Of a DNA stretch of 64,000 nucleotides, positions 24,187-60,845 are shown one piece after another (position 1 is the stretch's first letter; every line of letters begins with the position of its first letter). The notes beneath the pieces are model-generated. The model was not told where the DNA came from. It saw only the letters and a list, made by a program, of their open reading frames with translations, and made no database searches. Source of the DNA: Sphaerisporangium siamense. GTDB lineage: Bacteria; Actinomycetota; Actinomycetes; Streptosporangiales; Streptosporangiaceae. The position numbers and the translations under genes were made by a program. The stretch covers positions 6,200,001-6,264,000 of the forward strand of contig NZ_JACHND010000001.1 in the NCBI RefSeq assembly GCF_014205275.1, in the 5' to 3' direction.

Positions 24187-24195
24187 GACACCGTG

Positions 24196-26306: not shown

Positions 26307-26308
26307 CG

Positions 26309-30576: not shown

Positions 30577-30786
30577 TCAGGTCGTCATGTGGTCGATGAG
30601 GCTCTGCGGGCGCATGTCGGTCCAGACGGACTCGATGTGCTCCAGGCACTCCTGGCGGGTGCCGGGGCCGTGGGCGACCGTCCAGCCCGCGGGGACCTCG
30701 GCGAACTCCGGCCACAGGCTGTACTGCCCCTCGTCGTTGACGAGCACGGAGTAGACACCGTCGGGGTTCTCGAAGGGGTTGGTCAC
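30577..30786 (-). CDS. MbtH-like NRPS accessory protein
   Basis: 69 aa, standard length. Start GTG 30786 with AGAGGAG just upstream. Carries the MbtH signature: [32 protein letters not shown] and the closing [10 protein letters not shown]. MbtH proteins bind adenylation domains and are often needed for their folding and activity. It lies 56 bp after the NRPS stop on the same strand, so it is almost certainly in the same transcript and serves that enzyme. Confidence 0.97.
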
Positions 30787-30842
30787 TTTCTCTCCTCTGA
30801 ATCGATGTGCGGTTGACGTGCGGATGGTGGTGACGTGCCGGG

Positions 30843-33800
30843 TCAACGCCCGTCGCCGGTGGCGCGGGCGACCAGGGCCCGCAGCACCTGGAACCAGGTG
30901 CCGGCCAGGTCCTCGATCTGGGCCTCGGTCAGCAGCTCCCCGGCGAAGGACCACTGGGCGACGAGCACCGGCCCGCCGGGGCGGTCCTCGGTGAGGGCGT
31001 TGACCGTCAGCGGGTGCGACAGCGGCATGCCCGGGTCGGCGTCCAGGTCGGTGACGTCGCCCTCCGGCGCGTACGCCCAGTCGTCCTCGTCGAGGCCGCC
31101 GAAGCGTCCCAGGTAGTTGAACTCGATCCCCGGCGAGCCCAGCCGGGCCAACTCGGGACCGGCCTGCGGGTCCAGGTGGCGCAGCAGGCCGTACCCGATG
31201 CCCGCCGTGGGCAGCGCGGCCAGCCGCTCCCTGACCCTGGCCACCGCCGCGTCCAGCGCGGGGCCGCCCGCGAGCGCGTCGTCCAGGCCGGGGCCCGGGT
31301 CCAGCAGGACGGGGACGACGCTCGTGAACCAGCCGACCGTCCGCGACAGGTCCGCCTCGCCCGCCAGCGCCTCCTCGCGACCGTGGCCCTCTAGGTCCAC
31401 GAGGACGCCGTGCCCGGCGTCGCCCGCGTGCCGTCGCCGCCACCCGGCGACGGCGACGGCGAGCGCGGTGAGCAGCACGTCGTTGACGGTCGCGCCATAT
31501 GCGGCCGGGACGCGGCCGAGCAGCGGCTCGGTGACGTCCTCGGGCAGCGTGCGGGACAGGTAGCGGGCGGTCGCGACCACGTCGCGGGACGGGTCCAGCG
31601 GGCGGGGCGCCGGGAGCGGGGAACCGCCCTCCAGCGTCCGCCGCCACAGCGGCAGCTCGCCGCGCAGGACCGGATCGGCGGCGCGCTCGCCGAGCAGCTC
31701 CGCCCAGCGGCGGAACGACGTCTCCACCGGCGGCAGGTCCGGAGTCCTGTCCTCGGTGACGTCCCGCCAGGCCGAGGCGAGGTCGGGCAGCAGGACGCGC
31801 CACGAGACGCCGTCGACCGCCAGGTGGTGGATCGTGAGCAGCAGACGTCCCTGCCCCTCCGGCCCCGCGTCGAACCAGACGGCCCGCACCATGACGCCCG
31901 CGTCCGGGTCGAGACCGGACCGCGCGGCGAGCGCGTGCCCGGCGATGACCGCCCGCAGGTCATCGCCTTCGACGCCACGAACATCGACCCTGGTCACCAG
32001 CCCCGCCGCGTCCACGGCTCCCGCGGCCGGCACCCGCAGCACCCACCGCTGAGCCTCGTTCGCCGCAGACCCCTCCGCGGGCCGGTCCAGGCGGGCGCGG
32101 AGCATGTCGTGGTGGTCGAGCAGGGCCTGCAGGACGCGGCGCAGCCGGTCCTCGTCCAGGTCGCGCGGGGTGCGCAGGAGAGCCGCCTGGTGGAAGCCCC
32201 CGATCGGACCGCCCAGCTCGCGCACGGCGTGCATGATCGGCGTCAGCGGGACGGTGCCGGTGCCGTCGTCGTGGGTCGCGGGGGCCCCGCCGGGGCCGGT
32301 CACGACGGCGACGGTGGCCAGGGCCGCGACCGTGCGGTGCAGGAAGAGCTGGCGGGGGCTGAACCGCACCCCCGCCTCCCGGGCCCGCGCGGCCAGGCGT
32401 ATCGCGACGATGCTGTCGCCGCCGCAGGCGAAGAAGTCGTCGTCGGCGCCGATGCGCGGCAGGCCCAGTACTTCGGTGAACACGGCGGCCAGGGCGCGCT
32501 CGACCTCGCCGGACGGTTCCCTGCCGCTCGCGGCGAGGGTGAAGTCCGGCGCGGGGAGCGCCTTGCGGTCGAGCTTGCCGTTGGGCAGCAGCGGCAGCGC
32601 GTCCAGAACGACCACGGCCGCGGGCACCATGTAATCCGGCAACGCCGCCGCCACGAAGGCCCGCAACTCCGCCGAATCAGGCCCACTCGTCTTCCTGGCG
32701 AACGCACCGCTCCCAGCGGCCTCGTCCGGGACCTCCGCAGGACGCGATCCATCCGAAGACGGACCGTCCAGGGAAGGAGCATCCGGAGAAGCGCCGTCGA
32801 CCGGAGAGTCGTCGCCGGTGAGGACCACGTAGGCGACCAGGCGGGTGACGCCTGGGGTGTCCGTGCGGGGGGTGACGACGGCCTGGGCGACGGACGGGTG
32901 GCGGTCGAGGACGGCTTCGATCTCGGCGGGCTCGACGCGGAACCCGCGAATCTTGACCTGGTCGTCGGCGCGCCCGCCGTACTCCAGCCGCCCGTCGCGG
33001 GTCCAGCGGGCCAGGTCGCCGGTGCGGTACATGCGCGTGCCGGGCACGCCGTACGGGTCGGCGACGAACCGTTCCGCCGACTGGCCGGGACGGCCCAGGT
33101 ACCCGCGAGCCAGACCCTCGCCCGCCAGGTACAGCTCCCCGGTCACGCCGGGCGGCACCGGCCGCAGCCGGTCGTCCAGCACGTAGGCGCGGGCCCCGGA
33201 GACCGGGCGGCCGACCAGGGGCCGCTCGCTGTCACGGATCCGGGCGGCCAGGGCGTCCACGGTGGCCTCGGTGGGGCCGTACAGGTTGAACGCCTCGGTG
33301 GCCGGCAGCGCGGCCAGCCGCCGCCACAGCGAGTCGGGCACCGCCTCGCCGCCCACGCCGACCACGGCCAGCGGGCAGACGCCGTCCTCGATCAGCCCCG
33401 CCTCGGCCATCTGCGCGAAGAAGGACGGCGTGACCTCGATGAAGTCCAGCCTCTCCCGCCGGGCGAACGCGGCGGCCAGCTCGGCGTCGCGGCGCTCCTC
33501 ATCGTTCAGGATGTGCAGGGCGTGCCCGTCGAGCAACCACAGCTGCGGCTGCCAGGAGGCGTCGAAGGAGAACGACCAGGCGTGCCCGACGCGCAGGGCG
33601 GTCCTGCCGGTGGCCCGCTTGGCCGGGTCGTACAGCGTCGCGCGGTGGCTGTGGAACAGGTTGACGACCCCGCGGTGGCTCACCACGACGCCCTTCGGGC
33701 GGCCGGTGGAGCCGGAGGTGTAGATGACGTAGGCGGGGTTGAGCGGGTGCGGCCCGGCGTCCAGGTCCTCGCCGGGCAGCCCGGCCAGCGCCGCGACCGT

Positions 33801-36800
33801 CCCTGGGTCGTCCAGACGCAGAACGGGCACGCCCGCGTCGGTCGGTGACGACCTACCAGGCCCGGCCTTCTGCGGCGATTCCGCCTCCGGCGACGGTCCG
33901 GCGTCGTCGCCCGTGGTCAGGACGAGTACGGGGCGGGCGTCGCCGAGCATGTCCCGCACCCGGTCGGCCGGGAGTCCGGGATCGACGGGCAGGTAGGCGG
34001 CGCCGGACTTCATCACGGCCAGGATCGCCGTGACGAAGTCCGCCGAGCGCGGCAGCGCCAGGGCGACGACGCGTTCGGGGCCGGCGCCGCGCGCGGCGAG
34101 CAGGCGGGCGAGCCGGTTGGCGCGCTCGTTCAGCTCGGCGAACGTCCACCGGACCGCGCCGCAGACGACGGCGACGGCATCCGGCGTGGCCACGACCTGC
34201 GCCTCGAACAGCGCGGGAACCGTGGCCGGACCACCCGCGACCAAAGCGGCCGTCTCCGCAACCGCGGTGACACCGTCCGCCGCCGAGGCGTGCCCGTGCG
34301 CGGCCGTGGCGGACCCCTCTGGAGCCGCGGTGACGCCGGTCGTCGCGGGAGTGCGCGAAGGCGTGGGGAGGGGGGTGGTGCTCCAGGTGGTGAGGATGGT
34401 GTGGCGTTCTTCGGCGGCCAGGAGGTCGATCTGGCCGACCGGACGTTCGGGGGCCTCGGCGATCTGGGTGAGGACGCGGACCAGGCGGGTGGCGAGGAGG
34501 CCGGCGGTGTCGGCGTCGAACAGGTCGGCGCTGTACTCGATCCAGCCCGAGATGCCCCGGCCCTCGCCGTGGTCGACGAAGTCGAAGCTCAGGTCGAACT
34601 TGGCGGACTCCTGGCCGAGCGGCTCGGGGCTCGCGGTCAGCCCGGCCAGCGCGGGGGTGGCGCCGCCGCCGGTGAGGTAGGCGACCATCACCTGGAACAG
34701 CGGGTGCCTGGCCAGCGAGCGGGCGGGGTTGAGCGCCTCCACCAGCCGCTCGAACGGCACCTCCTGGTGCTCGTAGGCGGCGAGGTCGGCCGCGCGGACC
34801 CGGGCGAGCAGTTCGGCGAAGGTGGGGTCGCCGGACACGTCCGTGCGCAGCACGAGGGTGTTGATGAAGAACCCGACCAGGTCCTCCAGGCGCTCGTCGG
34901 CGCGGCCGGAGATGGGCGCGCCGATCGGGATGTCGTCGCCCGCGCCGAGCCGGTGCAGCAGCGTGGCCACGGCGGCCTGGACGACCATGAACATGCTGAC
35001 GCCGTGCTCGCGTGCCAGGCGGCGCAGGCCCGGCTCCAGGCCGGACGGCAGCGTGAACCCGGCCGCGCCACCGCGGTGGCCGCTCTCGGACGGCCGGGGG
35101 CGGTCGGCGGGCAGCGGCAGTTCCTCGGGCAGCCCGGCGAGGGCCCGCGTCCAGTAGGCGATCTCGCGGGAGTGACGGCTTCCGGGGTCGGCGGGGTCGC
35201 CGAGCCGTTCGCGCTGCCAGAGGGTGTAGTCGGCGTACTGGAGGGGCAGCGGCGCCCAGTCCGGGGCGTCCCCGGACAGCCGGGCCCGGTAGGCGGTGGC
35301 GAGGTCGCGCCACAGCGGCGCGTCGGACCATTCGTCGCCGGCGATGTGGTGGACGACGAGCGCGAGCACGTGCTCCTGTGGTCCCACCCGGAACACCCGG
35401 GCGCGCAGCGGCGGCTCGTGGTCCAGCGCGAAGCGGTGCCCGGCGGCCTCGGCCAGCCTGCCGGGCAGCTCCTCCTCGGTGACCGGCTCCGGCTCCCGGA
35501 CGTCCAGCGCGCCGGCGAGCCGGCCGGGGGGAAGGACGAGCTGGCAGGGGTGGCCGTCGCGTTCGGGGAAGACCGTGCGCAGGCTCTCGTGCCGCTCGGC
35601 CAGGTCGCGCAGCGCGGCCTCCAGCGCGGACGGGTCGAGCGGGCCGGTCAGGCGCCAGGCCATGGGGATGTTGTAGGTGTCGGTCGGGCCTTCCAGCCGG
35701 TACAGCACCCACAGGCGCCGCTGGGCGAACGACAGCGGCATCGGCTCGTGCCGTGCCACGGCGGCCAGGTCCGTGCCGCCGCCGTCGCGTGCCTGTTCCA
35801 GCCTGCGGGCCAGGCGGGCGACGGTGGGCGCCTCGAACACCTCGCGCAGGGTGACCTCGGCGCCGAGCGCGGTGCGGATCCGGCTGACCAGCCGCATGGC
35901 CAGCAGCGAGTGGCCGCCGAGCGCGAAGAAGTCGTCGTGGACGCCGACGCGCCCGGTGCCGAGGACGGCGGCGAACAGCTCGGCGAGGATCTCCTCACGA
36001 GCGTCCCTCGGCCGCCGCCCCGGCGCCTCGCCGGCCGAGTCCGGCGGTGCGGGCAGAGCGCGCCGGTCCAGCTTCCCTCCGGCCGACCTCGGCAGCGAGG
36101 CCACGGTCACGTAGACGGCCGGCACCATGTGCTCCGGCAGCGTACGCGCGAGGTGCGCCCGCAGCCCGGCGGAGTCCGGCGCGGCCGGGGCCAGGGCGGG
36201 GATCGCGGCGGGGACCACGTAGGCGACGAGGCGGCGGACGCCGGGGGTGTCCTCGCGGACGGTGACGGCCGCCTGGGCGACGGAGGGGTGGGCGCGCAGG
36301 GCGGCCTCGATCTCGCCGAGTTCGACGCGGAAGCCGCGCAGCTTGACCTGGTCGTCGGCGCGGCCGAGGAAGACCAGGGTGCCGTCGGCGCGGCGCCGGG
36401 CGAGGTCGCCGGTGCGGTACATGCGGGTGCCGGGCGGGCCGTAGGGGTCGGCGACGAACCGTTCCGCGGTGAGCGCGGGACGGTTCAGGTACCCCTGGGC
36501 GAGTCCGGCCCCGGCCAGGTACAGCTCGCCGGGCACGCCGGGGGGCACGGGCCGCAGCGCGGCGTCGAGCACGTGGGCGCGGATGTTGGCCACCGGCGCC
36601 GCCCAGACGCCCTGGCCGCCCGCGTGCCAGCCGTAGGCGTCCACGGCGCACTCGGTCGGCCCGTACATGTCGTGGACCGCCGTGCCGGGCGGCGCGGTCA
36701 GCCGTTCCCACAGCTCGGCGGGGGTGGCCTCGCCGCCGACGGTGATGACGCCCGGCTGGTGCGCTCCGGGCGCGAGGAACCCGTGGTGCAGCAGTTCCTG

Positions 36801-39800
36801 GACGTAGGTGGGGGTGAGGTCGACGTAGTCGAGGCGCTCGGTCTCCAGGTAGGCGAGCAGGGCGGCGGGGTCGGTCATCGTGGCCTCGTCCAGGACGTGC
36901 AGCTCGTGCCCGGCGAGCAGCCACAGCATCGGCTCCCATGAGCCGTCGAAGCCGAACGAGGCCGCGTGCATGGCGCGCAGGGTCTCGCGCCCGGCGGCAC
37001 GGCGCGCGGGTTCGATGACGTCCTCGTACTGGCCGCCGAACAGGTTGCTCAGCCCGCCGTGCGTCCCGACGACGCCCTTCGGCGTGCCGGTGGACCCGGA
37101 GGTGTAGATGACGTACGCGGCGGCCTGCGGCGGCGTCCCGACGCGCGCCGGGACGGTGCGGTCCCGCCTCGGCGGCGCGTCGCCCCGTTCCGGCGCGGGC
37201 GTCCCGGTCGCGTCATCGGCGGACGGCGGCACGGACAGGCCGGGGGCCGGATCATCGACGCGATCGTCCGGTACGGAGGAACCGTCCGGATCGCCGAGGA
37301 CCAGGGACGGCAAGCCGCCCGGGAGCGGCGGGGCGGCGTCGGTGGTCAGGACCAGCGTGGGGGCGGCGTCGGAGAGCACGTATGCCAGCCGCTCGGCCGG
37401 GAGGCCGGAGTCGAGGGGCAGGTAGGCGGCGCCGGCCGTCAGGACGCCCAGGATCGCGGGGACCATCTCGGAACGGGGCAGCGCGAGCCCGACCAGGTCG
37501 CCCCGGCCGACGCCGCGCCAGCGCAGCAGGCCGGCGATGCCGTTCACCTTGGCCGCCAGATCGGCGAACGTCAGCCTGCGCCCGCCCGCGACCAGCGCGA
37601 CCCGCTCGCCGTGGGCGCGGGCCGCCGCGGCGAAGATCTCGGGCACGGTGCGCCGTTCGACGGGCCTGGCGGCGCCGTTCCACGCGCCGAGGCTCGCCGC
37701 GTGCTCTTCGGCGGTGAGCACCGGCGCCTGCCCGATCGGCTGCCGGGGGTGGGTGGCCAGGTGGCCGAGCAGCGCGACGGTGCGCGCGACCAGGGCGTGG
37801 GCGGTCTCCTCGTCGGCGAGGTCGGCGGCGTACTCCAGCAGGACGACGACGCGGTCCTCGCCGGTGTGGTCGGCGAAGGTGAAGTCCAGGTCGAACTTGG
37901 CGGTGGTGATGCGGGCGGGCAGCCACTCGGTGGGCATGCCGAGCACGTCGGGATCGCCGCCGGGGCGGTGGTGGTAGCCCATCATCACCTGGAACAGCGG
38001 GTTGCGGCCGGGCACGCGCGGCGGGTTGAGCGCCTCGACGAGCCGCTCGAACGGGAGGTCCTGGTGCTCGAAGGCGGCCAGGTCCGCCTCGCGCACCCGG
38101 GCGAGCAGCTCGGTGAAGGCGGGGTCGCCGGACAGGTCGGCGCGCAGGACGAGGGTGTTGACGAAGAAGCCCACCATGTCGTCCAGCGCGCTGTCGGTGC
38201 GCCCGGCGATGGGCGAGCCGACGACGATGTCGGTGCCCGCGCCCATGCGGTGCAGCAGGACGGCGAGCGCGGCGTGGAACAGCATGAACATGCTGGTGCC
38301 GGTCTCGGCGGACAGGGCGCGTAGTGCCCTGACGGTCTCGGCGGGCAGTTCGGCGCGCACGGTGCCGCCCCGGCCGGTGGGGTCGGCGGGCCGGGGCCGG
38401 TCGAGGGGCAGCGGCGTCTCCTCGGGCAGGCCGGCCAGCGCGGCCGTCCAGTGGGCGAGCTGCCGGGCGGCCTCGCCGCCGGGGTCGGCGGGGTCGCCGA
38501 GCAGGCGGCGCTGCCACAGGGTGTAGTCGGCGTACTGGACGGGCAGCGGCGCCCAGTCCGGGGCGCGCCCGTCGCGGCGCGCCCGGTAGGCGGTGGCGAG
38601 GTCGGCGAGGAAGGGCCGGTCGGACCATTCGTCGGTGGTGATGTGGTGCAGGACGACGGCCACCACGTGGTCGTCGGGCCCGAGCCGCAGCACCTCGGCG
38701 CGCACGGGCAGCCCGGCGGCGAGGTCGAACGGGCGTGCCACGGCGGCGGCGACCCGGGCCTCGACGTCCCCGGCGACGCAGTCGGCGACGGCGAACTCGG
38801 GCCGCGCCTCGGCGGCGGGGACGACGTGCTGGTACGGCTCGCCCTCGTGCTCGGGGAACCGGGTGCGCAGGGCCTCGTGCCGGGCGACGACGTCGCCGAG
38901 CGCCTCCCGCAGCGCGGCCGTGTCGAGGGCGCCGCGCAGCCGGAAGACCAGCGGGAAGTGGTAGGCGTCGCCGCCGCTGAGGCGTTCCGCCAGCCACAGG
39001 CGGCGCTGCGCCGGGGAGGCGGGGACGCGCTCGGGCCGTTCGGCCGCGCGCGCGACGGCCGGGCGGGCGGGCCGTCCGGTCTCGGCGCGGGCGGCGAGCG
39101 CCTCGGGGGTGGGGGCCTCGAACAGGTCGCGGATGGCCAGCTCGGCGCCGAGCTCGGTGCGGGCGCGGCTGACCAGGCGGGTGGCGAGCAGCGAGTGGCC
39201 GCCGAGGTCGAAGAAGTCGTCCTCGGCGCTCACCTTCGGCAGGCCGAGCAGCTCGGCGTACAGGCGGCAGAGCACCTGCTCCTCGCGGGTGCGCGGCTCG
39301 CGCCCGCCCGTGGCGGTCACCGGCTCGGGGTCGGGCAGCGCGCGCACGTCCAGCTTGCCGTTGTCGTTCATGGGCAGCCCGTCCACGACGACCAGCGCGG
39401 TGGGCACCATGTAGTCGGGCAGGGCGGCGCGCAGGTCGTCGCGCACGCGCCGCACCAGCCCGCTCGCGCCGCGCGCCACGCCCGGGGCGTTGGCGTACGG
39501 GGGCGTGCCGCCGCCGGGGCGGTACAGGCCGCCGGTCAGGCGGGCCGCGCCGCGCACGAGGACGGCGTCGTAGTGGCCGGGCTCGGCGGACGGGGTGGTG
39601 AGCAGCCGGTGGCCGTGCTCGGCGGCCAGGGCGTGCAGGGCTTCGGGCTCCACTCCCCCGGCGATCGCCGAGCCGGGTTCGGAGGCGGCGCGGGCGTCGG
39701 GGACGCCGGTCACCCGCAGCGGGCCGGCGCCGTGGTCGCGCAGGAGGCGGCCGAGCGCGTCCGCGCGTCCGGCGGGCCAGGCGATCTCGGGCCCGGCGCC

Positions 39801-51413: not shown

Positions 51414-51476
51414 AGGTGACAAAGCCTCCCAACTCAACGAATCAGGGCCGAGATCCAGCCGTGACCGGCCACATAC

Positions 51477-51495
51477 TAAGGTAAGGTTTACCTAA
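51477..51495. promoter_or_regulatory. Iron box in the NRPS/FecCD divergent promoter
   Basis: TAAGGTAAGGTTTACCTAA, 15 of 19 matches to TTAGGTTAGGCTAACCTAA. Lies 64 bp upstream of the NRPS GTG and 81 bp upstream of the FecCD GTG, so one DtxR/IdeR site could repress both transcripts. Confidence 0.85.
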
Positions 51496-51532
51496 GTCAC
51501 ATCCCTGGGGCGCATGGTTTTCCGACCGAAAA

Positions 51533-51551
51533 TCAGGTATGCCTCACTTAA
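51533..51551. promoter_or_regulatory. Possible second, weaker iron box
   Basis: TCAGGTATGCCTCACTTAA, 13 of 19 matches to the iron-box consensus, 25 bp before the FecCD start. May add control specific to the transport operon. Confidence 0.45.
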
Positions 51552-51575
51552 GGAAGTCACAGTGGAGACATCGCG

Positions 51576-52601
51576 GTGACCCGCGCCCAAGGGCTACGGC
51601 CCGCGTTCCTCCTGGTGCTGCTCGGTGCCGTCCTGCTCGTCCTGTGCCTGCTCTCCATCGCGCTCGGCGCACGAGGGATCCCCCTGGACCAGGTGCTGCG
51701 CGCGCTCGCCGGCCATCCCGACAGCCGTCTCGTCGACAACGTCGTCTGGACGGTCCGCGTGCCGCGCACGGCGCTCGGGGTGACCGCCGGCGCGGCGCTC
51801 GGCCTGGCGGGCGCGCTCATGCAGGCCCTCACCCGCAACCCGCTCGCCGACCCCGGCGTGCTCGGCGTCAGCGCCGGCGCCGCGTTCGCCATTGTGTTCT
51901 CCGTCGCCGTGCTCGGCCTCGGATCGCTGCTCGGGTACATCTGGTTCGCCTTCGCCGGCGCCTTCGCCGCGGGCGTCCTGGTGTTCCTGCTCGGCAGAAT
52001 GGGACGCTCGGGGCTGACACCGGTCAAGCTCGCGCTCGCGGGCATCGCGATGACGTCGCTGCTCACCTCGCTGACCAGCGCCATCGTCCTGACCGCCCCC
52101 GACGCGCTGAACCGCTACCGCTTCTGGTCGGCGGGGTCGCTCGCCGACCAGGGAAGCGAGACCGTGCTGCGGGTGCTGCCGTTCGTGGTCGCGGGGGCGC
52201 TGCTGGCCATGGCGTGCGCGCCCGCCCTGAACAGCCTCGCGCTCGGGGACGACGTGGCCGCCTCGCTGGGCCGGCGCCTCGGGCTCGTCCGCCTGCAGGG
52301 CGTGGCCGCGGTCACGCTGCTGACCGGCGCCACGGTGTCGGTCATCGGCCCGGTGGTCTTCCTCGGCCTGGTCATCCCGCACGCCGCCCGCGCGCTCGCG
52401 CAACGTGCCGGGATAGGGCCGGACCACCGCTGGCTGCTTCCGCTGTCGGCGGTGCTCGCGCCCTGCCTGCTGCTGGCCGCGGACATCGCCGGGCGCATGG
52501 TCGCGCGGCCGGTCGAGATCCAGGCCGGGGTGCTCATCGCGTTCCTCGGCGGGCCGTTCTTCATCGCCATGGTCCGCCGTCGCAAGCTCGCGGAGGTGTG
52601 A
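51576..52601 (+). CDS. FecCD-family iron-siderophore ABC permease 1
   Basis: 341 aa, about nine or ten membrane helices. Family marks: VPRTALGVTAGAALGLAGAL near residue 65, then TRNPLADPGVLGVSAGAAF, and VGLVIPH-like FLGLVIPHAARAL near residue 265. GTG start 51576 preceded by GTGGAG. First gene of a three-gene uptake operon divergent from the NRPS and next to iron boxes. It forms a heterodimeric channel with the next gene for ferric siderophore import. No binding protein is present in this operon. Confidence 0.93.
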   Translation: MTRAQGLRPAFLLVLLGAVLLVLCLLSIALGARGIPLDQVLRALAGHPDSRLVDNVVWTVRVPRTALGVTAGAALGLAGALMQALTRNPLADPGVLGVSAGAAFAIVFSVAVLGLGSLLGYIWFAFAGAFAAGVLVFLLGRMGRSGLTPVKLALAGIAMTSLLTSLTSAIVLTAPDALNRYRFWSAGSLADQGSETVLRVLPFVVAGALLAMACAPALNSLALGDDVAASLGRRLGLVRLQGVAAVTLLTGATVSVIGPVVFLGLVIPHAARALAQRAGIGPDHRWLLPLSAVLAPCLLLAADIAGRMVARPVEIQAGVLIAFLGGPFFIAMVRRRKLAEV

Positions 52602-52604
52602 GCC

Positions 52605-53693
52605 GTGGTCCGCACCTCCGGCGAGACCCGGGCCGGCGACACCGCCGCCGTCCCCGCGCGCCGGCACTTCCGCCTCGCCGTCCCGCCCGTCTCCGGCGTC
52701 CTGCGGCCCCGCCTGGTCGCGGTGTGCGCGGCGCTGCTGGCCGCGACGTTCCTGGTGTTCTGCTGGGGCGTCTCGATGGGCGACGTCCCCATCGGGCTCA
52801 CCGCCGTGATGAAGGCCCTGGCAGGCCAGGGCGACCCGGGGACGCTGCTGGTCGTCAGGGAGCTGCGGCTGCCGCGCGCCCTGGTCGGGCTGCTCGCGGG
52901 CGTCGCCTTCGCCGTGTCCGGCGCCCTGTTCCAGACGATGACCCGCAACCCGCTGGCCTCCCCCGACATGATCGGCCTCACCGAGGGCGCGGGGACGGCC
53001 GTGGTCGCGGGGATCGTGCTCGGCTGGGACGCCGGCATCGGCGTGCAGGCGCTCGGCCTGACCGGCGCGCTCGCCACCGCGCTGCTGGTCTACCTGCTGG
53101 CCTGGCGGCGCGGCACGACCGGCTACCGCATCATCCTCGTCGGCATCGGCCTGTCGTGGATCTGCACCAGCGCCACCGACTTCCTGGTGGCGCGGGGCGG
53201 ACGGTTCCAGGCGCAGGCGGCGCTCGGCTGGCTGGTGGGCAACCTCAACGGCCGCTCGTTCGAGGACGCGATCCCGCTCGCCGTCGCCGTCGCCGTGCTG
53301 GTGCCCGCGACACTGGTCCTCGGCCGCCTGCTGCGCACCCTGCAGCTCGGCGACGACGTGGCCGCCGCGCTCGGCACCCGCGTCCAGGCCGTGCGGCTCG
53401 GCCTGATGCTGACCGGCGTGGGGCTGGTGGCGTTCGCGACCGCGGCGGCGGGGCCGATCGCGTTCGTGGCGCTGGCCGCGCCGCAGATCGCCCAGCGGCT
53501 GGCCGGGGCCGCCCACCCTCCCCCGGTCGCCTCCGCGCTGACCGGGGCCCTGGTGGTGCTCGGCGGCGACCTCGCCGCCCGCACGATCATCCCCGGCACC
53601 GAGCTCCCCGTCGGCGTCGTCACCGGCGTCCTCGGGGCGCCCGTCCTGCTCTGGCTGCTCATCCGCGTCAACCGCGCGGGGTCAGGAGGCTGA
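52605..53693 (+). CDS. FecCD-family iron-siderophore ABC permease 2
   Basis: 362 aa with a roughly 40-residue cytosolic N-terminal extension before the first helix. Carries LPRALVGLLAGVAFAVSGALF, TRNPLASPDMIGLTEGAG and PIAFVALAAPQIAQRLAG, matching FecD/FepG-type permeases. GTG 52605 lies 3 nt after the first permease stop and uses GGAGG within the end of that gene. Partner of permease 1. Confidence 0.93.
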   Translation: MVRTSGETRAGDTAAVPARRHFRLAVPPVSGVLRPRLVAVCAALLAATFLVFCWGVSMGDVPIGLTAVMKALAGQGDPGTLLVVRELRLPRALVGLLAGVAFAVSGALFQTMTRNPLASPDMIGLTEGAGTAVVAGIVLGWDAGIGVQALGLTGALATALLVYLLAWRRGTTGYRIILVGIGLSWICTSATDFLVARGGRFQAQAALGWLVGNLNGRSFEDAIPLAVAVAVLVPATLVLGRLLRTLQLGDDVAAALGTRVQAVRLGLMLTGVGLVAFATAAAGPIAFVALAAPQIAQRLAGAAHPPPVASALTGALVVLGGDLAARTIIPGTELPVGVVTGVLGAPVLLWLLIRVNRAGSGG

Positions 53694-53696
53694 ATC

Positions 53697-54491
53697 ATGG
53701 ATCCGGACCTGCGGGCGAGCGGCCTGCGCCTGGCGTACGGCGACCGTACGGTGGTCGACGGCCTGGACGTGGTGGTCCCGCCGGGGCGCATCACGGCCAT
53801 CGTGGGCGCCAACGCGTGCGGCAAGTCGACGCTGTTGCGGGCGCTGGCCCGGCTGCTGGCGCCTTTGGAGGGCGCGGTGCGGCTGGACGGCCGGGCGTTG
53901 CGCTCGATCCCGACCCGCGAGCTGGCCCAGCGTCTCGGCATCCTGCCGCAGACGCCGGTCGCGCCCGAGGGGCTGACCGTCATCGACCTGGTCGGCCGGG
54001 GCCGGTCGCCGTACCAGACGTGGTGGCGGCAGTGGTCGGCGGCCGACGAGCAGGCCGTGCACGGCGCGCTCGCCGCCACCGGGCTGACCGCCCTGGCCCA
54101 CCGCCCGGTGGACGAGCTGTCCGGGGGGCAGCGGCAGCGCGCCTGGATCGCCATGGCGGTCGCGCAGGGCACGCAGGTGCTGCTGCTCGACGAGCCGACG
54201 ACGTACCTGGACCTGGCGCACCAGATCGACGTGCTGGACCTCATCACCGACCTGAACCGTCGCGAGGGCCGGACCATCGTCATGGTGCTGCACGACCTCA
54301 ACCAGGCCTGCCGGTACGCCGACCACATGATCGCCATGAAGTCCGGCAAGATCGTCACCGAGGGCGCCCCCGCCGACGTCGTCACCGCCGCCACGGTCGA
54401 GGACATCTTCGGCCTCCGCTGCCAGGTCACCATGGACCCGATCAGCGCCACCCCCCTGGTGATCCCGAAGGGCCGCCACCACGACGCCTAG
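53697..54491 (+). CDS. FepC-type ferric-siderophore ABC ATPase
   Basis: 264 aa. Walker A GANACGKST, signature LSGGQRQRAWIAMA, Walker B VLLLDEPTTYLD and the switch His in VMVLHDLNQACRYADH are all intact. The LDLAHQIDVLDL stretch is typical of the FepC/FhuC subfamily. Start ATG 53697 with AGGAGG 9 nt upstream, 3 nt after permease 2. Powers the FecCD pair. Confidence 0.95.
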   Translation: MDPDLRASGLRLAYGDRTVVDGLDVVVPPGRITAIVGANACGKSTLLRALARLLAPLEGAVRLDGRALRSIPTRELAQRLGILPQTPVAPEGLTVIDLVGRGRSPYQTWWRQWSAADEQAVHGALAATGLTALAHRPVDELSGGQRQRAWIAMAVAQGTQVLLLDEPTTYLDLAHQIDVLDLITDLNRREGRTIVMVLHDLNQACRYADHMIAMKSGKIVTEGAPADVVTAATVEDIFGLRCQVTMDPISATPLVIPKGRHHDA

Positions 54492-54604
54492 CCCGACCGG
54501 CGCGGCGCCGGGTCTCGCTCTTCCCCGTTCTCCCAGGTGACGGCTGTCCCGGTCGGGAACGGGAGCGGCGGTAGGCTGCCTGTGGGCGTACGCGGAGAGC
54601 GGTC

Positions 54605-55786
54605 ATGAGAATTCTCGGCATGATTTCCGGCACCTCCCACGACGGCATCGACGTGGGCGTGGTCGGCTTCGACCCGGCCTACGCCGGGGGCACGCTGGCC
54701 GGGGCGGTCGAGTACACGGCGGTCACCCCCTACCCGTCCGGGTTGCGCGCGCGCCTGGTCAGGGCGCTTCCGCCCGCGGCGGTGACGTTCGCCGAGGTGT
54801 GCGAGCTGGACACGCTCATCGGCCAGAGCTTCGCCGAGGCCGCCGGGACGGCGATCGAGCGGGCCGGGCCGGTGGACCTGATCGTCTCGCACGGTCAGAC
54901 CGTCTTCCACTGGGTCGACGGTCCGCGTGCCCGGGGGACGCTGCAGATCGGCGCCCCCGCCTGGATCGCCGAGCGCACGGGGACGCCTGTGCTGTCGGAT
55001 GTGCGCGTGCGCGACATCACGGCCGGCGGGCACGGCGCCCCGCTGGTGTGCCTGCTCGACGTCCTGCTGCTCGCCGGGCACCCGGGGACCGCCGCCGTGC
55101 TCAACGTGGGAGGGATCGCGAACATGACGGTGGTGCGCGGCCCGGACGAGCCGCTCGCCTACGACATCGGACCGGGCAACGCGCTCATCGACGCCGTCGT
55201 GGCGGACCGAGGGCTGAACGCTGACGGGTTCGACCGGGACGGGCGCATCGCCGCCTCCGGGACGGTCGACGAACGCCTTCTCGCGGTGCTGCTCGACGAC
55301 CCGTTCTACCGGTTGCCCGCCCCCAGGAGCACCGGCAAAGAACTCTTCCACGGGGCCTACGTCGAGGACGCGATGGCGAGGGCGGGCGTGCGGCCGGACG
55401 ACGCCGGCCTCGTCGCCACCCTCACCGAGCTCACCGTGCGCACCGTCGCCCGCGAGGTGACGGAGTCCGGCGCCGACCTGCTCGTCGTCTCCGGCGGCGG
55501 ATGCCACAACCCCGTGCTGATGGACGGCCTGCGCCGCGCGTGCCCGGGGGTGACCGTCACCTTCTCCGACGACTACGGCGCGCCGGCCGACGCCAAGGAG
55601 GCCATCGCCTTCGCCCTCATCGGCTGGCACACCGCCCACGGCCTGCCGGCAACCGTGCCCGCCGGCACCGGAGCACGCGGCCCGCGCATCCTCGGCGCCC
55701 TCACCCCGGGCTCGGGACCGCTCGTCCTCCCGGCCCCGCTCCCCGAGCCTCCCCGGGCTCTGAAGCTGACCCGGCGACGACCCTGA
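54605..55786 (+). CDS. anmK: Anhydro-N-acetylmuramic acid kinase
   Basis: 393 aa. Kinase of the ASKHA fold: phosphate-binding GMISGTSHDGIDVG at the N-terminus, catalytic-base region LIVSHGQTVFH, then LNVGGIANMT and the adenosine block VVSGGGCHNPVLMDGL. In E. coli AnmK hydrolyses the 1,6-anhydro bond and phosphorylates anhydroMurNAc during cell-wall recycling. It sits between the two halves of the siderophore locus with no obvious link to iron; a hairpin ends it. Confidence 0.92.
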   Translation: MRILGMISGTSHDGIDVGVVGFDPAYAGGTLAGAVEYTAVTPYPSGLRARLVRALPPAAVTFAEVCELDTLIGQSFAEAAGTAIERAGPVDLIVSHGQTVFHWVDGPRARGTLQIGAPAWIAERTGTPVLSDVRVRDITAGGHGAPLVCLLDVLLLAGHPGTAAVLNVGGIANMTVVRGPDEPLAYDIGPGNALIDAVVADRGLNADGFDRDGRIAASGTVDERLLAVLLDDPFYRLPAPRSTGKELFHGAYVEDAMARAGVRPDDAGLVATLTELTVRTVAREVTESGADLLVVSGGGCHNPVLMDGLRRACPGVTVTFSDDYGAPADAKEAIAFALIGWHTAHGLPATVPAGTGARGPRILGALTPGSGPLVLPAPLPEPPRALKLTRRRP

Positions 55787-55790
55787 CCCG

Positions 55791-55826
55791 GCGCGGCGGC
55801 GGCCCTGAAGACGACCGCCGCCGCGC
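55791..55826. terminator. Hairpin between convergent anmK and formyltransferase
   Basis: Perfect 12-bp arms (55791-55802 with 55815-55826) around a 12-nt loop, 5 bp after the anmK stop. Likely bidirectional. Confidence 0.65.
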
Positions 55827-55834
55827 GGGCCGTG

Positions 55835-56782
55835 TCAGGGGTGGGCGGTGAGGTAGCCGCCCATGGTGGTGAAGTAGTCGGTCGCGGAGTGCTCGGCGCC
55901 GTCGTCGGTGCGCACGCGCCGGACGAGCAGGCCGGGGAGGCGGCCGGTGTGGGCGTCGGCGCCGGCGACGATCACCACGCCGTCGCCCTCGCGGATGAAC
56001 ACCCGGCCGGGGGTTCCGCCGTACCTGGCCTCCGAGACGGCGGCGGAGACGATGCGGATCCTGCGGCCGTCGTGGTAGGTGTACGCGTTGGGGTAGGGGT
56101 CGGACTGGGCGCGGACGAGGCGTTCCAGCCGTTCGGCGGGCCAGGTCCAGTCGATGCGGCCGTCCTCGATGGAACGCTTGTGGAAGAAGCTCGCCCGGGC
56201 GCGGTCCTGCGGCGTCCAGCGGGCCCGGCCGGAGGCGATGAGGTCGAGCGACTCGCGCACGACCGGGCCGATGAGGTCGACGGTGCGGTGGAACAGGTCG
56301 GTCGCGGTGTCGTCCGGCCGGACGGTCACGGCGCGCTGGAGGACGATGTCGCCGGCGTCCAGGCCGGCGTCCATGCGGTGCGCGGTGACGCCGACCTCCT
56401 GCTCTCCGTTGATGAGGGCCCAGATGATGGGGGAGAAGCCCGCGTACGCCGGCAGCAGCGAGTCGTGGACGTTGAGCGTGCCGTGCGGCGGCAGGTCGAA
56501 GATCTCCGGCGGGAGCCAGGTGCGCCAGTTGTTGGCGACGATGATGTCGGGGGCGGCGTCCTTCACGGCCTGGAGCAGCTCGGCGTCGCCGGGGCGGCGG
56601 CGCAGCAGGACGGGCACGTCGTGCTTGGCGGCCAGCTCGGCGACGGAGTCGTCCCAGATCTTCTCGTAGGCGTGGTCGCTCTTGGGGTGGGTGACGACGA
56701 GGGTCACCTCGTGACCGGACTCGATCAGGGCCTGCAGCGTGCGATGGCCCCAGGTCTGGTACCCGAACATGACGACCCGCAT
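55835..56782 (-). CDS. Methionyl-tRNA formyltransferase-like hydroxyornithine formyltransferase
   Basis: 315 aa from ATG 56782, which has GAGAGGGG upstream; eight more codons are open before it but lack a site. N-terminal formyltransferase fold with the catalytic Asn-x-His in TLNVHDSLLPAYAGFSP and the Asp in MDAGLDAGDIV; then the C-terminal Fmt-like domain. Homologues in coelichelin-type clusters (CchA) formylate N5-hydroxyornithine with N10-formyl-tetrahydrofolate. The divergent neighbour is the ornithine hydroxylase and two iron boxes lie between them, so it is better read as a siderophore enzyme than as the housekeeping Fmt. Confidence 0.9.
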   Translation of the reverse strand: MRVVMFGYQTWGHRTLQALIESGHEVTLVVTHPKSDHAYEKIWDDSVAELAAKHDVPVLLRRRPGDAELLQAVKDAAPDIIVANNWRTWLPPEIFDLPPHGTLNVHDSLLPAYAGFSPIIWALINGEQEVGVTAHRMDAGLDAGDIVLQRAVTVRPDDTATDLFHRTVDLIGPVVRESLDLIASGRARWTPQDRARASFFHKRSIEDGRIDWTWPAERLERLVRAQSDPYPNAYTYHDGRRIRIVSAAVSEARYGGTPGRVFIREGDGVVIVAGADAHTGRLPGLLVRRVRTDDGAEHSATDYFTTMGGYLTAHP

Positions 56783-56815
56783 AAATGGTTCCCCTCTCGA
56801 AACCACGAAGACAAA

Positions 56816-56834
56816 GAAGGTTAGCCTAACCTCA
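56816..56834. promoter_or_regulatory. Iron box, formyltransferase side
   Basis: Contains the perfect palindrome AGGTTAGCCTAACCT (56818-56832), the core of the DtxR/IdeR site, 34 bp upstream of the formyltransferase start. Confidence 0.85.
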
Positions 56835-56840
56835 TGATTG

Positions 56841-56859
56841 CAAGGTAAGGCTAACCTTA
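56841..56859. promoter_or_regulatory. Iron box, hydroxylase side
   Basis: CAAGGTAAGGCTAACCTTA, 15 of 19 matches to the consensus, 39 bp upstream of the hydroxylase GTG. Centre-to-centre distance to the other box is 25 bp, so two repressor dimers could sit side by side. Confidence 0.85.
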
Positions 56860-56897
56860 TCTAGCATGTCCATGGCGAAAAAGGAGGAGATGCCGCG

Positions 56898-58232
56898 GTG
56901 AACGCACTGCCCAGCGGGCCGGACGTCGTCTACGACATCCTCGGAGTGGGATTCGGGCCGTCCAATCTGGCACTGGCCATAGCACTCGACGAGCACAACG
57001 CGAAGGCCGGCGCGGCGGACCGCCTGCGGGCGGGGTTCCTGGAGAGGCAGCCGAGCTTCGGATGGCACCGCGGCATGCTGATCGACGACGCGACGATGCA
57101 GGTCTCGTTCCTGAAGGACCTGGTCACCCTGCGCGACCCGTGCAGTGACTACAGCTTCCTGTGCTACCTGCGCGAACGCGGCAGGCTCGTCGACTTCCTC
57201 AACCAGAAGACCCTGTTCCCGCTGCGGGCCGAGTTCCACGACTACCTGGAATGGGCCGCCGCCCGGGTGGACCACCTGGTGGACTACTCCTCGGAGGTGC
57301 TCGCCGTCGAGCCGGTCACCTCCCCCGGCGGCGAGATCGCCTGGTTCGACGTGGTCGGCCGCGGCGCCGACGGCCGCACGGTCGTGCGCCGCGCCCGCAA
57401 CGTCTGCCTGGCCGTCGGCATGGAGCCGCACCTGCCGCCGGACACCGTGCTGTCCGACCGCGTCTTCCACAACAGCGAGCTCGTCCCCCGCGTGGCCGCC
57501 CTGGTCGCGGGCGGCTCCCCGGTGCGGCGCGCGCTGGTGCTCGGCGCCGGGCAGAGCGCGGCCGAGGCCGTCGAATACCTGCATCGCTCGTTCGGCGACG
57601 CCGAGGTGTGCGCGGTGTTCGCCAAGTACGGCTTCACCCCGGCCGACGACAGCCCGTTCGCCAACCGTATCTTCGACCCCGAGGCGGTGGACGTCTACTT
57701 CAACTCCCCGCCCCACGTGAAGCGGTCGCTGTTCGACTACCACCGCGGCACCAACTACTCGGTGGTCGACATGGAGCTGATCGAGGCGCTGTACGCCACC
57801 AGCTACCGGGAGAAGGTGCAGGGCCGCGAACGGCTGCGCATGCTCAACGTCTCGCGCATCCGCGACGTGCGGGAGACCGGCGAGGGCCTGGAGGTCACCG
57901 TGGAGTACCTGCCCACCGGCGAGCGCGAGGTGCTGGCCGCCGACATACTCGTCCACGCCACCGGCTACCGCTCCCGCGACATCTCCGCGCTGCTCGGCGA
58001 GGCCGCCAAGCTGTGCCTGCGCGACGAGGAGGACGGCGTGCGGGTCGGGCGCGACCACCGCGTGGCGGTCGCTCCCCCGGTCACCGCGGGCGTCTACCTG
58101 CAGGGCGGCACCGAGCACACGCACGGCATCTCCTCCACGCTGCTGTCGACGACGGCGATCCGCGCGGGCGAGATCCGTGACTCGCTGCTGACGCACCGCG
58201 CCACGGCCGCCGTCCTGTCCCCGCCCCGCTGA
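56898..58232 (+). CDS. L-ornithine N5-monooxygenase (SidA/PvdA/CchB family)
   Basis: 444 aa. FAD site GVGFGPSNLALAIA near the N-terminus, the substrate-proximal stretch MQVSFLKDLVTLRDP, the NADPH site VLGAGQSAAEAVEYL near residue 215, and the family ATGY motif in HATGYRSRD near residue 355. It makes N5-hydroxyornithine, the hydroxamate precursor that the A3 pocket of the NRPS is predicted to accept. GTG 56898 preceded by AAGGAGGAG. Iron boxes lie just upstream. Confidence 0.96.
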   Translation: MNALPSGPDVVYDILGVGFGPSNLALAIALDEHNAKAGAADRLRAGFLERQPSFGWHRGMLIDDATMQVSFLKDLVTLRDPCSDYSFLCYLRERGRLVDFLNQKTLFPLRAEFHDYLEWAAARVDHLVDYSSEVLAVEPVTSPGGEIAWFDVVGRGADGRTVVRRARNVCLAVGMEPHLPPDTVLSDRVFHNSELVPRVAALVAGGSPVRRALVLGAGQSAAEAVEYLHRSFGDAEVCAVFAKYGFTPADDSPFANRIFDPEAVDVYFNSPPHVKRSLFDYHRGTNYSVVDMELIEALYATSYREKVQGRERLRMLNVSRIRDVRETGEGLEVTVEYLPTGEREVLAADILVHATGYRSRDISALLGEAAKLCLRDEEDGVRVGRDHRVAVAPPVTAGVYLQGGTEHTHGISSTLLSTTAIRAGEIRDSLLTHRATAAVLSPPR

Positions 58233-58285
58233 CGCCCCCTCCCCGGGCGGCGCCGCGCCGCACGTCATCCCCGAAAGGCCCGCTC

Positions 58286-59863
58286 GTGACCGACCTGCTC
58301 AGCGCCCCGGCGCCCGGCCTGCCCGACGCCTACGCCGAGGCCGAGATCGACACCGCCTTGGAGGCCCTCGCGCAGGCGGGCGCCCAGCGCTACAGCGGCG
58401 GAACGTTCGCCGACGTCGGCTGCGGCCCTGGCGAGGTGGCGGCGGCGATGGCCGAGGACGAGTTCACCGTCACCGCGCGCGACGCCTCCCCGGCGTGGGT
58501 CGCGGCGACCCGGGCGCGGTGCGCGGGCCTCGCCGTCACGGCCGAGGTCCGCGAACCGGGCGCGCCGCTGGACGAGGGCGCCTACGACGTCGTCCACTCC
58601 TCCTGGGCGCTGCACACCGTGGCCGACGCGGGCGCCGCCGTGCGGTCGATGGCGCGGGCGGTGCGGCCGGGCGGGCTGCTGGTCCTGCAGTGGAGCTTCG
58701 CCCAGCCGCGCGCGGAGGGGTTCGTGCTGCGCGACGTCGTGCGGTCGCTCGCCGCCGGGCCCGTGTGGCGCGACCGGCTCGCCGCGGTCCCGTTCGCGCC
58801 GCACGCCCACCCGCTGGACGAGGTGCGCGCCGTCCTCGCGGCCGAGGGGCTGGAGGTCCTGCTCGCCGAGGGCGTGCGGGTCACCGACGGGCCCGGCCAC
58901 GAGGAGGCGTGCCGGGCGGCGGTCGCCGCGCAGGTGCGCGCGCTCGGCGCGGACGGCGCCCGGTTCGCCGGCGCCGTGGTCGAGGCGCTCGCCGCCGCCG
59001 GGGCGCTGGACGCGCGCACCGTGCGGCTGACGGCGCGCCGCCCCCGCGCGGAGGAGGCCGCGACCGGCGCCGCGTCGCGGCCGAGGTCGCCGGTGCGCGC
59101 GTTCCCGCTGGCCACCGGCATGCTGGAGGTCGTCTCCGCCACGCGGCTGTCCCCGCTGATGCGGCGGATGGTGCTGCGCGTGGACGGCGACCCGCTGCCC
59201 GTCGAGGAGCCCGGCGAGATCATCACGCTGGTGTGGCCGGCCCCGGGCGCCGACGTCGTCCTGCCCGAGCGCGGGCGCTGGCGCTTCCCGCCGGGCACCG
59301 GGCCGCAGCACGCGGTCAACTACACCGTGCGCCGCCACGACCCGCGGGCCGGGCTCGTGACGATCGACTTCTTCGACCACGGGGAGGAGGCACTCGCCTC
59401 GCGGTGGGCGCGGCACGCGGCGCCGGGCGACCGCGTCGGCTACGCCGGCACCCGCGTGCACTGGGCCGCCGACCCCTTCGCCTCCTGGACGCTGCTGGCC
59501 GGGGACGAGACCGCGCTGCCCTCGATCGCCGCCGTCACCGAGACGCTTCCGCCGGGAGGGCGCCACATCGCGGTGGTCGAGGTGCGCGACGCCGCCGAGC
59601 GCGCGGCGCTGGACGTGGCCCATCCGGAGGTGCACTGGGTGTACCGGGGCGAGCGCGCGCCGGGCGTGGGGCGGGCGATCGAGGACGTCGTGCGCGGCCT
59701 GGACCTGCCGCCGGGGCGGGGCCAGGTCTGGGCGGGCGGCGAGTCGCTGATGATCCAGAGCCTGCGCCGGCATCTGACCCGCGAGCGGGGCGTGCCGCGC
59801 GACCAGGTGTGCGCGCTCGGGTACTGGAGCATCCCGCGCGACCGGCGCGGGGCGGGGTCCTGA
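58286..59863 (+). CDS. Methyltransferase-siderophore-interacting protein fusion
   Basis: 525 aa. Residues about 1-250 are a class I SAM methyltransferase (FADVGCGPGEVAAAM, then VVHSSWALHTV and RAVRPGGLLVLQW). Residues about 265-520 are a siderophore-interacting protein: FAD part with VNYTVRRHDP and IDFFDHGEEALASRWA, NAD(P)H part with LLAGDETALPSIAAV, and the family end CALGYWS. The SIP part should reduce ferric siderophore to release iron. The methyltransferase target is unknown; it might act on the siderophore. GAAAGG precedes GTG 58286; it lies 53 bp after the hydroxylase, likely in the same iron-regulated transcript. Confidence 0.9.
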   Translation: MTDLLSAPAPGLPDAYAEAEIDTALEALAQAGAQRYSGGTFADVGCGPGEVAAAMAEDEFTVTARDASPAWVAATRARCAGLAVTAEVREPGAPLDEGAYDVVHSSWALHTVADAGAAVRSMARAVRPGGLLVLQWSFAQPRAEGFVLRDVVRSLAAGPVWRDRLAAVPFAPHAHPLDEVRAVLAAEGLEVLLAEGVRVTDGPGHEEACRAAVAAQVRALGADGARFAGAVVEALAAAGALDARTVRLTARRPRAEEAATGAASRPRSPVRAFPLATGMLEVVSATRLSPLMRRMVLRVDGDPLPVEEPGEIITLVWPAPGADVVLPERGRWRFPPGTGPQHAVNYTVRRHDPRAGLVTIDFFDHGEEALASRWARHAAPGDRVGYAGTRVHWAADPFASWTLLAGDETALPSIAAVTETLPPGGRHIAVVEVRDAAERAALDVAHPEVHWVYRGERAPGVGRAIEDVVRGLDLPPGRGQVWAGGESLMIQSLRRHLTRERGVPRDQVCALGYWSIPRDRRGAGS

Positions 59864-59879
59864 CGGACCCCGAGGGACG

Positions 59880-59916
59880 GGGCGGCCGCGGTGGAGGGTG
59901 CCCGCCGCGGCCGCCC
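59880..59916. terminator. Hairpin ending the siderophore locus
   Basis: Perfect 12-bp arms (59880-59891 with 59905-59916) and a 13-nt loop between convergent genes. Likely bidirectional terminator. Confidence 0.65.
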
Positions 59917-59945
59917 GCGTGCTGCTCAGGGGCGCCGGTGTCCGG

Positions 59946-60845
59946 TCAGGGCGTCGGAGTCGGCGCGGGGGTGGTCGGCACGTCCGTCGGCGACCCGGTC
60001 GGCGAACCCGTCGGCGTGGGCAGGTCCGTCGGGAGGTCGGTCGGCGAGCCGGTCGGCGTCGCCGTGGGGGTCCCGGGCGGGACGCTCGGCGACGAGGTGG
60101 GGGTGGGGACGGGCGGGGTGGGGCACGGCTTGGGCGTGCGCCACTTCGAGGGCCTGCCGTGCCTCCACTGCCACTGGGGCGGGTACCACCGGTCGTTGTC
60201 CCGCCAGAGGTTCCTGACGGGCCGGGACAGGTCGTAGACGTAGGCCGCGGTCGGCGTCTCGACACCGGTCGCGGAGGTCACCGACAGCCAGTCGCCCTGC
60301 CTGACCTCGCGGTCACGGCCACCGGCGAAGACCTTGGTGGTGTCGTCCACGATGTAGACCTTCTCGAAGCCGTCGCGGCTGCGGACGGTGATCGAGTCCT
60401 CCGCCACGGCGGTGGCCTCGCCGGTCTGGGTGAGCACGGTCACGAAGACGCAGGGGTCCTTCGTGCCGAGGACGATCTCCCCGTGCGGCGCCCCGCTGAG
60501 CGCCCACGCGCCGGGGCGTGGCACGCTCGGCGCCGGGGAGGGCGCCGTGGGGGTCGGGGTGGGGAGGTCCGTGGGACCGGCCGTGGGCGTGCCCGTCGGC
60601 AGGTCGGTCGGGATCCCCGTGGGAGACTCCGTCGGGAGCGTCGGCGTCCCGGTCGGGGTCTCGCTGACGGTCGGCGTCGGCGACGCGGGCGGCTCGGGAG
60701 CCGAGGCCGCCGCCGCGGCCACGCCCACGCCCCCGGACGCCAGGAGCACGGTGGCGGTGGCGACGATCATCGGTCGGTTGATACGGCGGTGCGGCCCACC
60801 CTGTTCGTCTCGTCCTTTGTCCGGCTTTCCAGGGTTGGTCGGCAT
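59946..60845 (-). CDS. Exported protein with Pro/Thr repeats around a DUF5666-like domain
   Basis: 299 aa from ATG 60845, chosen for GGAGG 8 nt upstream. A charged N-terminus is followed by a membrane or signal helix (MIVATATVLLASGGVGVAAAAA, residues about 25-46). Then come repeats such as TPTGTPT and PTDLPTG, a folded core near 115-215 (GEATAVAEDSITVRSRDGF, KVYIVDDTTKVFAGG) resembling DUF5666, an aromatic WYPPQWQW patch, and a second PT/PS-rich tail to the stop. The repeats look like a cell-wall-spanning or glycosylated spacer. Function not known. Confidence 0.78.
   Translation of the reverse strand: MPTNPGKPDKGRDEQGGPHRRINRPMIVATATVLLASGGVGVAAAAASAPEPPASPTPTVSETPTGTPTLPTESPTGIPTDLPTGTPTAGPTDLPTPTPTAPSPAPSVPRPGAWALSGAPHGEIVLGTKDPCVFVTVLTQTGEATAVAEDSITVRSRDGFEKVYIVDDTTKVFAGGRDREVRQGDWLSVTSATGVETPTAAYVYDLSRPVRNLWRDNDRWYPPQWQWRHGRPSKWRTPKPCPTPPVPTPTSSPSVPPGTPTATPTGSPTDLPTDLPTPTGSPTGSPTDVPTTPAPTPTP

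Follow-up and report, generated by a model that had tools for sequence, protein, structure and literature searches.

The window examined here is a 64-kb stretch of Sphaerisporangium siamense DNA (bases 6200001 to 6264000 of contig 1 in a genome of 8.5 Mb and two contigs), and it very probably carries a gene cluster for a tris-hydroxamate siderophore of the scabichelin type, built around a gene for a pentamodular nonribosomal peptide synthetase (NRPS). A first-pass annotation had called a hydroxamate peptide siderophore locus here, which our analysis supports, and had held that its module order does not match scabichelin, a claim that was not borne out by comparison with Streptomyces scabiei 87.22: the order is identical there, the adenylation (A) domains pair position by position, and the core synteny is the same. 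Judged from this comparison of sequences, the module order is not new but is that of the known scabichelin-type pathway. A false lead is removed in that the order belongs to a characterized siderophore pathway, and what is gained is the placement of such a pathway in a Sphaerisporangium-like genome, wider limits for the cluster, and exact masses to look for. Its less ordinary features are a methyltransferase-reductase fusion and a five-module state that a quick tree suggests is separate from that of S. scabiei.

Comparison with the scabichelin cluster of Streptomyces scabiei

S. scabiei 87.22 is reported as a scabichelin producer in passages of PMC8914351, which also give the scabichelin cluster as 30,019 bases with tags SCAB_85431 to SCAB_85521, the NRPS being SCAB_85471. 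By our gene calls, the S. scabiei stretch from exporter to hydroxylase measures 30,020 bases, and we equate its NRPS (L023) with SCAB_85471 on the basis of organism, size, and order and not of a record tag. In both the window and S. scabiei, a single protein has the module order A-nMT, A, A-nMT, A, A-E, where nMT is an N-methyltransferase domain and E an epimerization domain. The A3-nMT3 region served as the query in a scan of GTDB species genomes; it gave at least 596 stretches, at least 548 of them encoding relatives, from which the best 80 loci were taken. Among 84 NRPSs in the census of module order, the complete five-module order is present in 21 (the window's included); another 24 run to six modules or more, and the other 39 are partial, otherwise arranged, or unresolved.

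The correspondence extends beyond the synthetase. Both clusters have a terminal E domain without a thioesterase (TE), an MbtH-like protein, FecCD-FecCD-FepC genes, a formyltransferase, a divergent hydroxylase, an exporter pair, and a binding protein, and their core genes keep the same order and orientation. For each of the window's domains A1 to A5, the best match in S. scabiei is the like-numbered A domain (86, 75, 84, 66, and 68%, respectively; next best, 51 to 56%). The pocket codes, read at nine positions by motif geometry with an assumed numbering, are identical at A1, A3, and A5, and A2 is of the serine type in both (DVWHFSLVD in the window and DVWHLSLVD in S. scabiei). The A5 code, DAQEGGLVD, is present in all 21 five-module lines.

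Several observations weigh against assigning the cluster to the scabichelin type or set the two clusters apart. The first-pass annotation had proposed that its claim would fall to a known cluster of the same order with about 80% identity throughout; the order agrees, but the identity of the core genes to S. scabiei ranges from 57 to 82%. For the NRPS, modules 1 to 5 give 68, 65, 73, 61, and 57%, down to the lowest value in module 5, and these figures refer to the best aligned segments (about 1040 of 1435 residues in module 1 and about 1020 of 1219 in module 2). A4 is the A domain least similar to its S. scabiei counterpart (66%, with the next match at 54%), and it differs at two pocket positions (DGEDTGMVD versus DGEDAGLVD), although it is of the same DGED type and not of the serine type. 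The window has an extra 6.8-kb unrelated block between the binding protein and MbtH genes, an anmK gene between the FepC and formyltransferase genes, and the reductase fusion behind the hydroxylase; AnmK and the fusion have no match in the compared S. scabiei region. Finally, S. scabiei itself is reported in PMC8914351, as far as its passages go, to make both scabichelin and turgichelin.

The assembly line and its probable product

The NRPS gene (positions 30843 to 51437, minus strand) is a single open frame of 6,864 amino acids when counted from the TTG at 51437; translation more likely begins at the GTG at 51413, which agrees with the start annotated for the homologue on a plasmid of Streptomyces sp. 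NBC_01558 (L009). Domains were called with Pfam and with hidden Markov models built from the NRPS's own domains, and the result agrees with the first-pass description of one NRPS with A1-nMT, Ser, hydroxyornithine-nMT, A4, and A5-E beside siderophore genes. With C for condensation and T for thiolation domains, the order is half-C, A-nMT-T, C-A-T, C-A-nMT-T, C-A-T, C-A-T-E, with no TE.

All domains are encoded on the minus strand. Module 1 opens with a C-domain remnant (50700 to 51437), which L009 also has and which a tblastn search with module 1 finds in S. scabiei as well; it continues with A1 (49440 to 50699; code DVWILAATN, which would select formyl-hydroxyornithine), an nMT domain with in-frame repeat inserts (47601 to 49307), and T1 (47136 to 47357; GGDS). 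Module 2 consists of C2 (45483 to 47135), the serine-type A2 (44145 to 45482), and T2 (43479 to 43700; GGDS). Module 3 comprises C3 (41997 to 43478), with RHLLLWDG replacing HHxxxDG, A3 (40716 to 41996; the N5-hydroxyornithine-type code DMENLGLIN), a second nMT domain (39564 to 40583), and T3 (39099 to 39320; GGHS). The substrate types first read for A2 and A3 hold in our nine-position reading. C4 (37599 to 39098), A4 (36318 to 37598; putatively for ornithine), and T4 (35814 to 36035; GGHS) make up module 4. They are followed by C5 (34215 to 35813), A5 (32928 to 34214; putatively for the C-terminal hydroxyornithine), T5 (32319 to 32540; GGDS), and the terminal E domain (30846 to 32318), which has no TE behind it. 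The T domains that precede C2 and C3 are of the GGDS kind, and the Rhodococcus rhodnii line differs from the window in having explicit E domains at both of these places; a dual epimerization/condensation function for C2 and C3 was considered but not adopted. The gene also contains tandem repeats, whose period is in many cases a multiple of three, such as an 18-base unit at 48058 to 48176 and a 54-base unit at 49114 to 49220.

From its sequence, the line likely makes scabichelin or a close congener, that is, N-methyl-N5-formyl-N5-hydroxyornithine (N-methyl-fhOrn), Ser, N-methyl-N5-hydroxyornithine (N-methyl-hOrn), probably Orn, and cyclic hOrn, on the structure assumed here for scabichelin. Coelichelin, too, is an NRPS-made hydroxamate of formyl-hydroxyornithine and hydroxyornithine but comes from a tripeptide line. 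We infer Orn for the DGED-type A4 from its acidic pocket and from the assumed scabichelin structure, and with Orn at position 4 the computed formula is C26H49N9O10, with [M+H]+ at 648.3675 and the ferric ion at 701.2790. The corresponding computed values are 621.3202 and 674.2317 for Ser at this position and 664.3624 and 717.2739 for hOrn. The turgichelin-type cluster of Streptomyces turgidiscabies Car8 has the same five-module order as the window, with a serine-type A4 where S. scabiei and the window have the DGED type. The ion formula putatively annotated as turgichelin in a passage of PMC10458595 corresponds to C24H44N8O11, which is the exact computed sum of N-methyl-fhOrn, Ser, N-methyl-hOrn, Ser, and cyclic hOrn.

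The terminal E domain fits such a product, since scabichelin, unlike albisporachelin, is described in part of PMC6024995 as not all-L. Release would occur by lactam formation of the C-terminal hydroxyornithine. For kineochelin, which likewise ends in cyclic hydroxyornithine, a passage of PMC13238742 proposes a standalone ArCP-TE protein for that step; none was found here, and the thioesterase family PF00975 has nine matches in the genome and none in the window, other alpha/beta hydrolase families not having been searched.

Of the alternatives to scabichelin itself, a new pentapeptide congener with the same scaffold and another residue 4 survives best, but it is unlikely. It is raised because the A4 pocket has changed at the two positions given above, and the family varies at position 4: among the 21 complete five-module lines, A4 is of the serine type in 13 and of the DGED/DGDD type in 8. 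Nevertheless, the window's A4 retains the S. scabiei code at its four acidic positions (D235, E239, D278, and D331 in the assumed numbering), and relatives with this A4 type may have A, V, S, or T at position 299. Ser as the fourth residue, giving a turgichelin-like product, is less probable still. The A4 type does not fix the product, because S. scabiei, with its DGED-type A4, is reported in the available part of PMC8914351 to make both compounds, so this type may be relaxed in its substrate choice; however, the window's A4 is not closest to the serine-type A4 of S. turgidiscabies; in that line it matches A5 best, at 53%. That the cluster has decayed and is nonfunctional appears very improbable. 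The tandem repeats, some of them in-frame inserts, and the degenerate C3 motif speak for decay, but the frame is open, and all five T serines, all five A10 lysines, motif I of both nMT domains, and the E motifs are intact. Furthermore, the arginine of C3 is common among relatives (xHLLLWDG has Arg in 39 of 41 matches and His in 2), and a same-genus genome, G017, retains these genes at 79 to 98% identity. An assembly line with a previously unseen module order is next to impossible, as exactly this order is shared by the 21 NRPSs of the census, S. scabiei 87.22 among them.

We found no occurrence of the window's pocket codes in the literature. The titles and abstract openings of papers on Sphaerisporangium siderophores describe no such locus, and in the parts available of the literature on Streptosporangi- biosynthetic gene clusters, PMC3943440 cites scabichelin in its reference list only. 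The candidate formulas do not occur in those portions of the scabichelin literature that were searched, and the passages of PMC8914351 contain no mass.

Cluster genes, iron-box-like sites, and the reductase fusion

The gene for the MbtH-like protein (30577 to 30786, minus strand; PF03621; 67% to S. scabiei) lies beside that of the NRPS. On the plus strand, divergent from the NRPS gene, are two FecCD permease genes (51576 to 52601 and 52605 to 53693; PF01032; 77 and 70% to S. scabiei) and a FepC-type ATPase gene (53697 to 54491; PF00005; 82%). Further along, the formyltransferase gene (55835 to 56806, minus strand; PF00551/PF02911; 80%), whose product would act on N5-hydroxyornithine, is divergent from the gene for L-ornithine N5-monooxygenase, a Lys/Orn N-monooxygenase (56898 to 58232, plus strand; PF13434; 72%); of three matches to this hydroxylase family in the genome, it is the only full-length one.

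The interval first given for the locus, 30577 to 59863, contains these core genes but is too narrow, for an exporter pair and a binding protein at 18943 to 23762 are part of the siderophore cluster as well. By Pfam, these are two plus-strand ABC exporter halves, A (ABC_membrane and ABC_tran; 18943 to 20784; 60% to S. scabiei 9541290 to 9543014) and B (20781 to 22667; 69% to 9543074 to 9544813), and a plus-strand ferric-siderophore binding protein (Peripla_BP_2; 22686 to 23762; 65% to 9544885 to 9545952). We assign them to the cluster because their S. scabiei matches directly adjoin the MbtH gene there; in TRM90804, a genome of the same genus as the window, the binding protein gene likewise adjoins MbtH. 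A role in export for the ABC pair would fit the coelichelin pathway, where a passage of PMC12161575 presumes the ABC complex CchGI to be the exporter.

Iron-box-like sites were scored against an assumed palindromic 19-base consensus, with at least 14 of 19 matches required and 20 first-order Markov resamples of the window as the control. There are five such sites in the 64 kb and none in the 20 resamples: one before the exporter operon (18919 to 18937; 16/19), two in the NRPS/FecCD divergent promoter (51477 to 51495, 15/19, and 51533 to 51551, 14/19), and two in the formyltransferase/hydroxylase divergent promoter (56816 to 56834, 16/19, and 56841 to 56859, 15/19). Lowering the threshold to 13 adds one overlapping site at 56846, with a resample mean of 0.1. 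At threshold 14, three sites occur in the 52-kb region of S. scabiei, one in each of the same three promoters, and these promoters also bear such sites in TRM90804, G017, and L009, the last with one extra site at 8905, away from them. A consensus scan of 51400 to 60000 found neither sigma-70 promoters nor terminators.

Taken together, these genes suggest a pathway in which an IdeR/DmdR-type repressor would be expected to leave the three iron-box promoters when iron is low. The hydroxylase and formyltransferase would then provide N5-hydroxy- and N5-formyl-N5-hydroxyornithine, and the NRPS, with MbtH, would couple N-methyl-fhOrn, Ser, N-methyl-hOrn, a fourth residue that is probably Orn, and hOrn. 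The last residue would be epimerized, and the peptide would leave the line, which lacks an integrated TE, as a cyclic hOrn lactam. Secretion would fall to the ABC exporter pair, while the binding protein, FecCD/FepC, and the siderophore-interacting protein (SIP) reductase would return the iron and release it.

What had been called a ferric reductase is indeed a SIP-type reductase but is fused to an N-terminal methyltransferase domain. The gene (58286 to 59863, plus strand; PF08241 and others plus PF08021/PF04954) encodes a class I methyltransferase domain and the reductase in a single frame, 53 bases behind the hydroxylase gene, and its halves match separate solved families, methyltransferases and SIP reductases. 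The same fusion stands behind the hydroxylase in two same-genus genomes, TRM90804 (61%) and G017 (94%); a search of the remaining nine genomes in that comparison, S. scabiei among them, did not find it. In a sample of 120 Streptosporangiaceae genomes, whose hits do not include TRM90804 and G017, 55 (the window's own included) match the fusion protein at 1e-30. Among the matches listed besides the window's own, only that of G100 (from residue 62), which holds a stop codon, enters the methyltransferase core; all others listed start at residue 193 or later. The same-genus genomes G011, G016, and G019 of this sample have no match at 1e-30, and Sphaerisporangium album has a 50-residue reductase-like fragment directly behind its hydroxylase. 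Both methylations on the NRPS are already served by its own nMT domains.

Two neighbors appear unrelated to the siderophore. AnmK (54605 to 55786), which falls within the interval first given for the locus, was rejected as a siderophore gene and is taken as a bystander, because it is the genome's only AnmK match, scores above an NCBIfam cut-off for anhydro-N-acetylmuramic acid kinase, and finds no counterpart in the compared regions of S. scabiei, TRM90804, and L009. The 6.8-kb block, which contains no iron-box-like sites, encodes a CsoR-family repressor, a beta-lactamase-fold/rhodanese protein, and a TauE permease (23871 to 27061), which we take to resemble a sulfide/persulfide response operon, followed by the hopanoid C-3 methylase HpnR (27143 to 28666; NCBIfam TIGR04367, 827 bits, cut-off 650) and an MFS protein.

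Five- and six-module relatives

Six-module relatives, represented by L009 and by Sphaerisporangium melleum, have the same first four and last modules as the window and an extra A5-T5-C6 unit, with a serine-type A5 in both. This unit is not in the window, where the corresponding domains map to A4, T4, C5, A6, T6, and E6 of L009. When domains are compared one at a time, the window matches L009 minus A5-T5-C6, as do seven other five-module lines, Sphaerisporangium album, and G017. In the five-module lines with a serine-type A4, A4 is additionally A5-like, and that of S. turgidiscabies Car8 is closest to A5 of L009. A whole-module swap between the scabichelin and turgichelin types was considered but is not supported: in the three five-module lines of the serine type that were compared (L016, L038, and L049), A5-likeness is confined to A4, and T4 and C5 remain similar.

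Domains A2, C3, and A3 were used for a quick tree with 50 rows (23 five-module, 25 six-module, and 2 others) and SH-aLRT support only. The five/six label has to switch six times or more on it, and well-supported branches force five of these switches; shuffled labels give a mean of 16. The window, G017, and Sphaerisporangium album form one five-module group within a Streptosporangiaceae set that includes six-module members, and this group stands away from that of S. scabiei. This suggests, on a tree in which some intervening forks are weak and NRPS recombination could mislead, that the window's five-module state arose apart from that of S. scabiei. The signs as to the direction of change are mixed, the compared Amycolatopsis and Rhodococcus lines looking six-like and Actinocrispum five-like.

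More tentatively, and with somewhat less than an even chance, Sphaerisporangium may have reached five modules separately, by losing (or not gaining) A5-T5-C6, with the fusion adding a new iron-release step. If so, the same siderophore backbone evolved more than once via natural exchange of one A-T-C block, and the five- and six-module lines that interleave on the tree, one such block apart, would illustrate in nature the block exchange that NRPS engineering seeks to imitate.

The window's genome groups with Sphaerisporangium: NRPS frames in three genomes of its genus (G012, G016, and G018; 6487, 4304, and 4587 amino acids) equal in length those of Sphaerisporangium sp. TRM90804, Sphaerisporangium album, and Sphaerisporangium corydalis. 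In Sphaerisporangium album (G016; L125 and L126), the NRPS homologue is divided between overlapping frames of 4304 and 3170 amino acids, which reflects either a sequencing error or a real break. Three other plasmid matches contain no scabichelin-type cluster, as judged by longest-frame architecture for L010 and L012 and by annotation only for L011. The six-module cluster of L009 sits on a 678-kb linear plasmid and has the same flanking genes as the window, but with the exporter pair and binding protein behind the hydroxylase and with argB inside the cluster, beside the formyltransferase gene.

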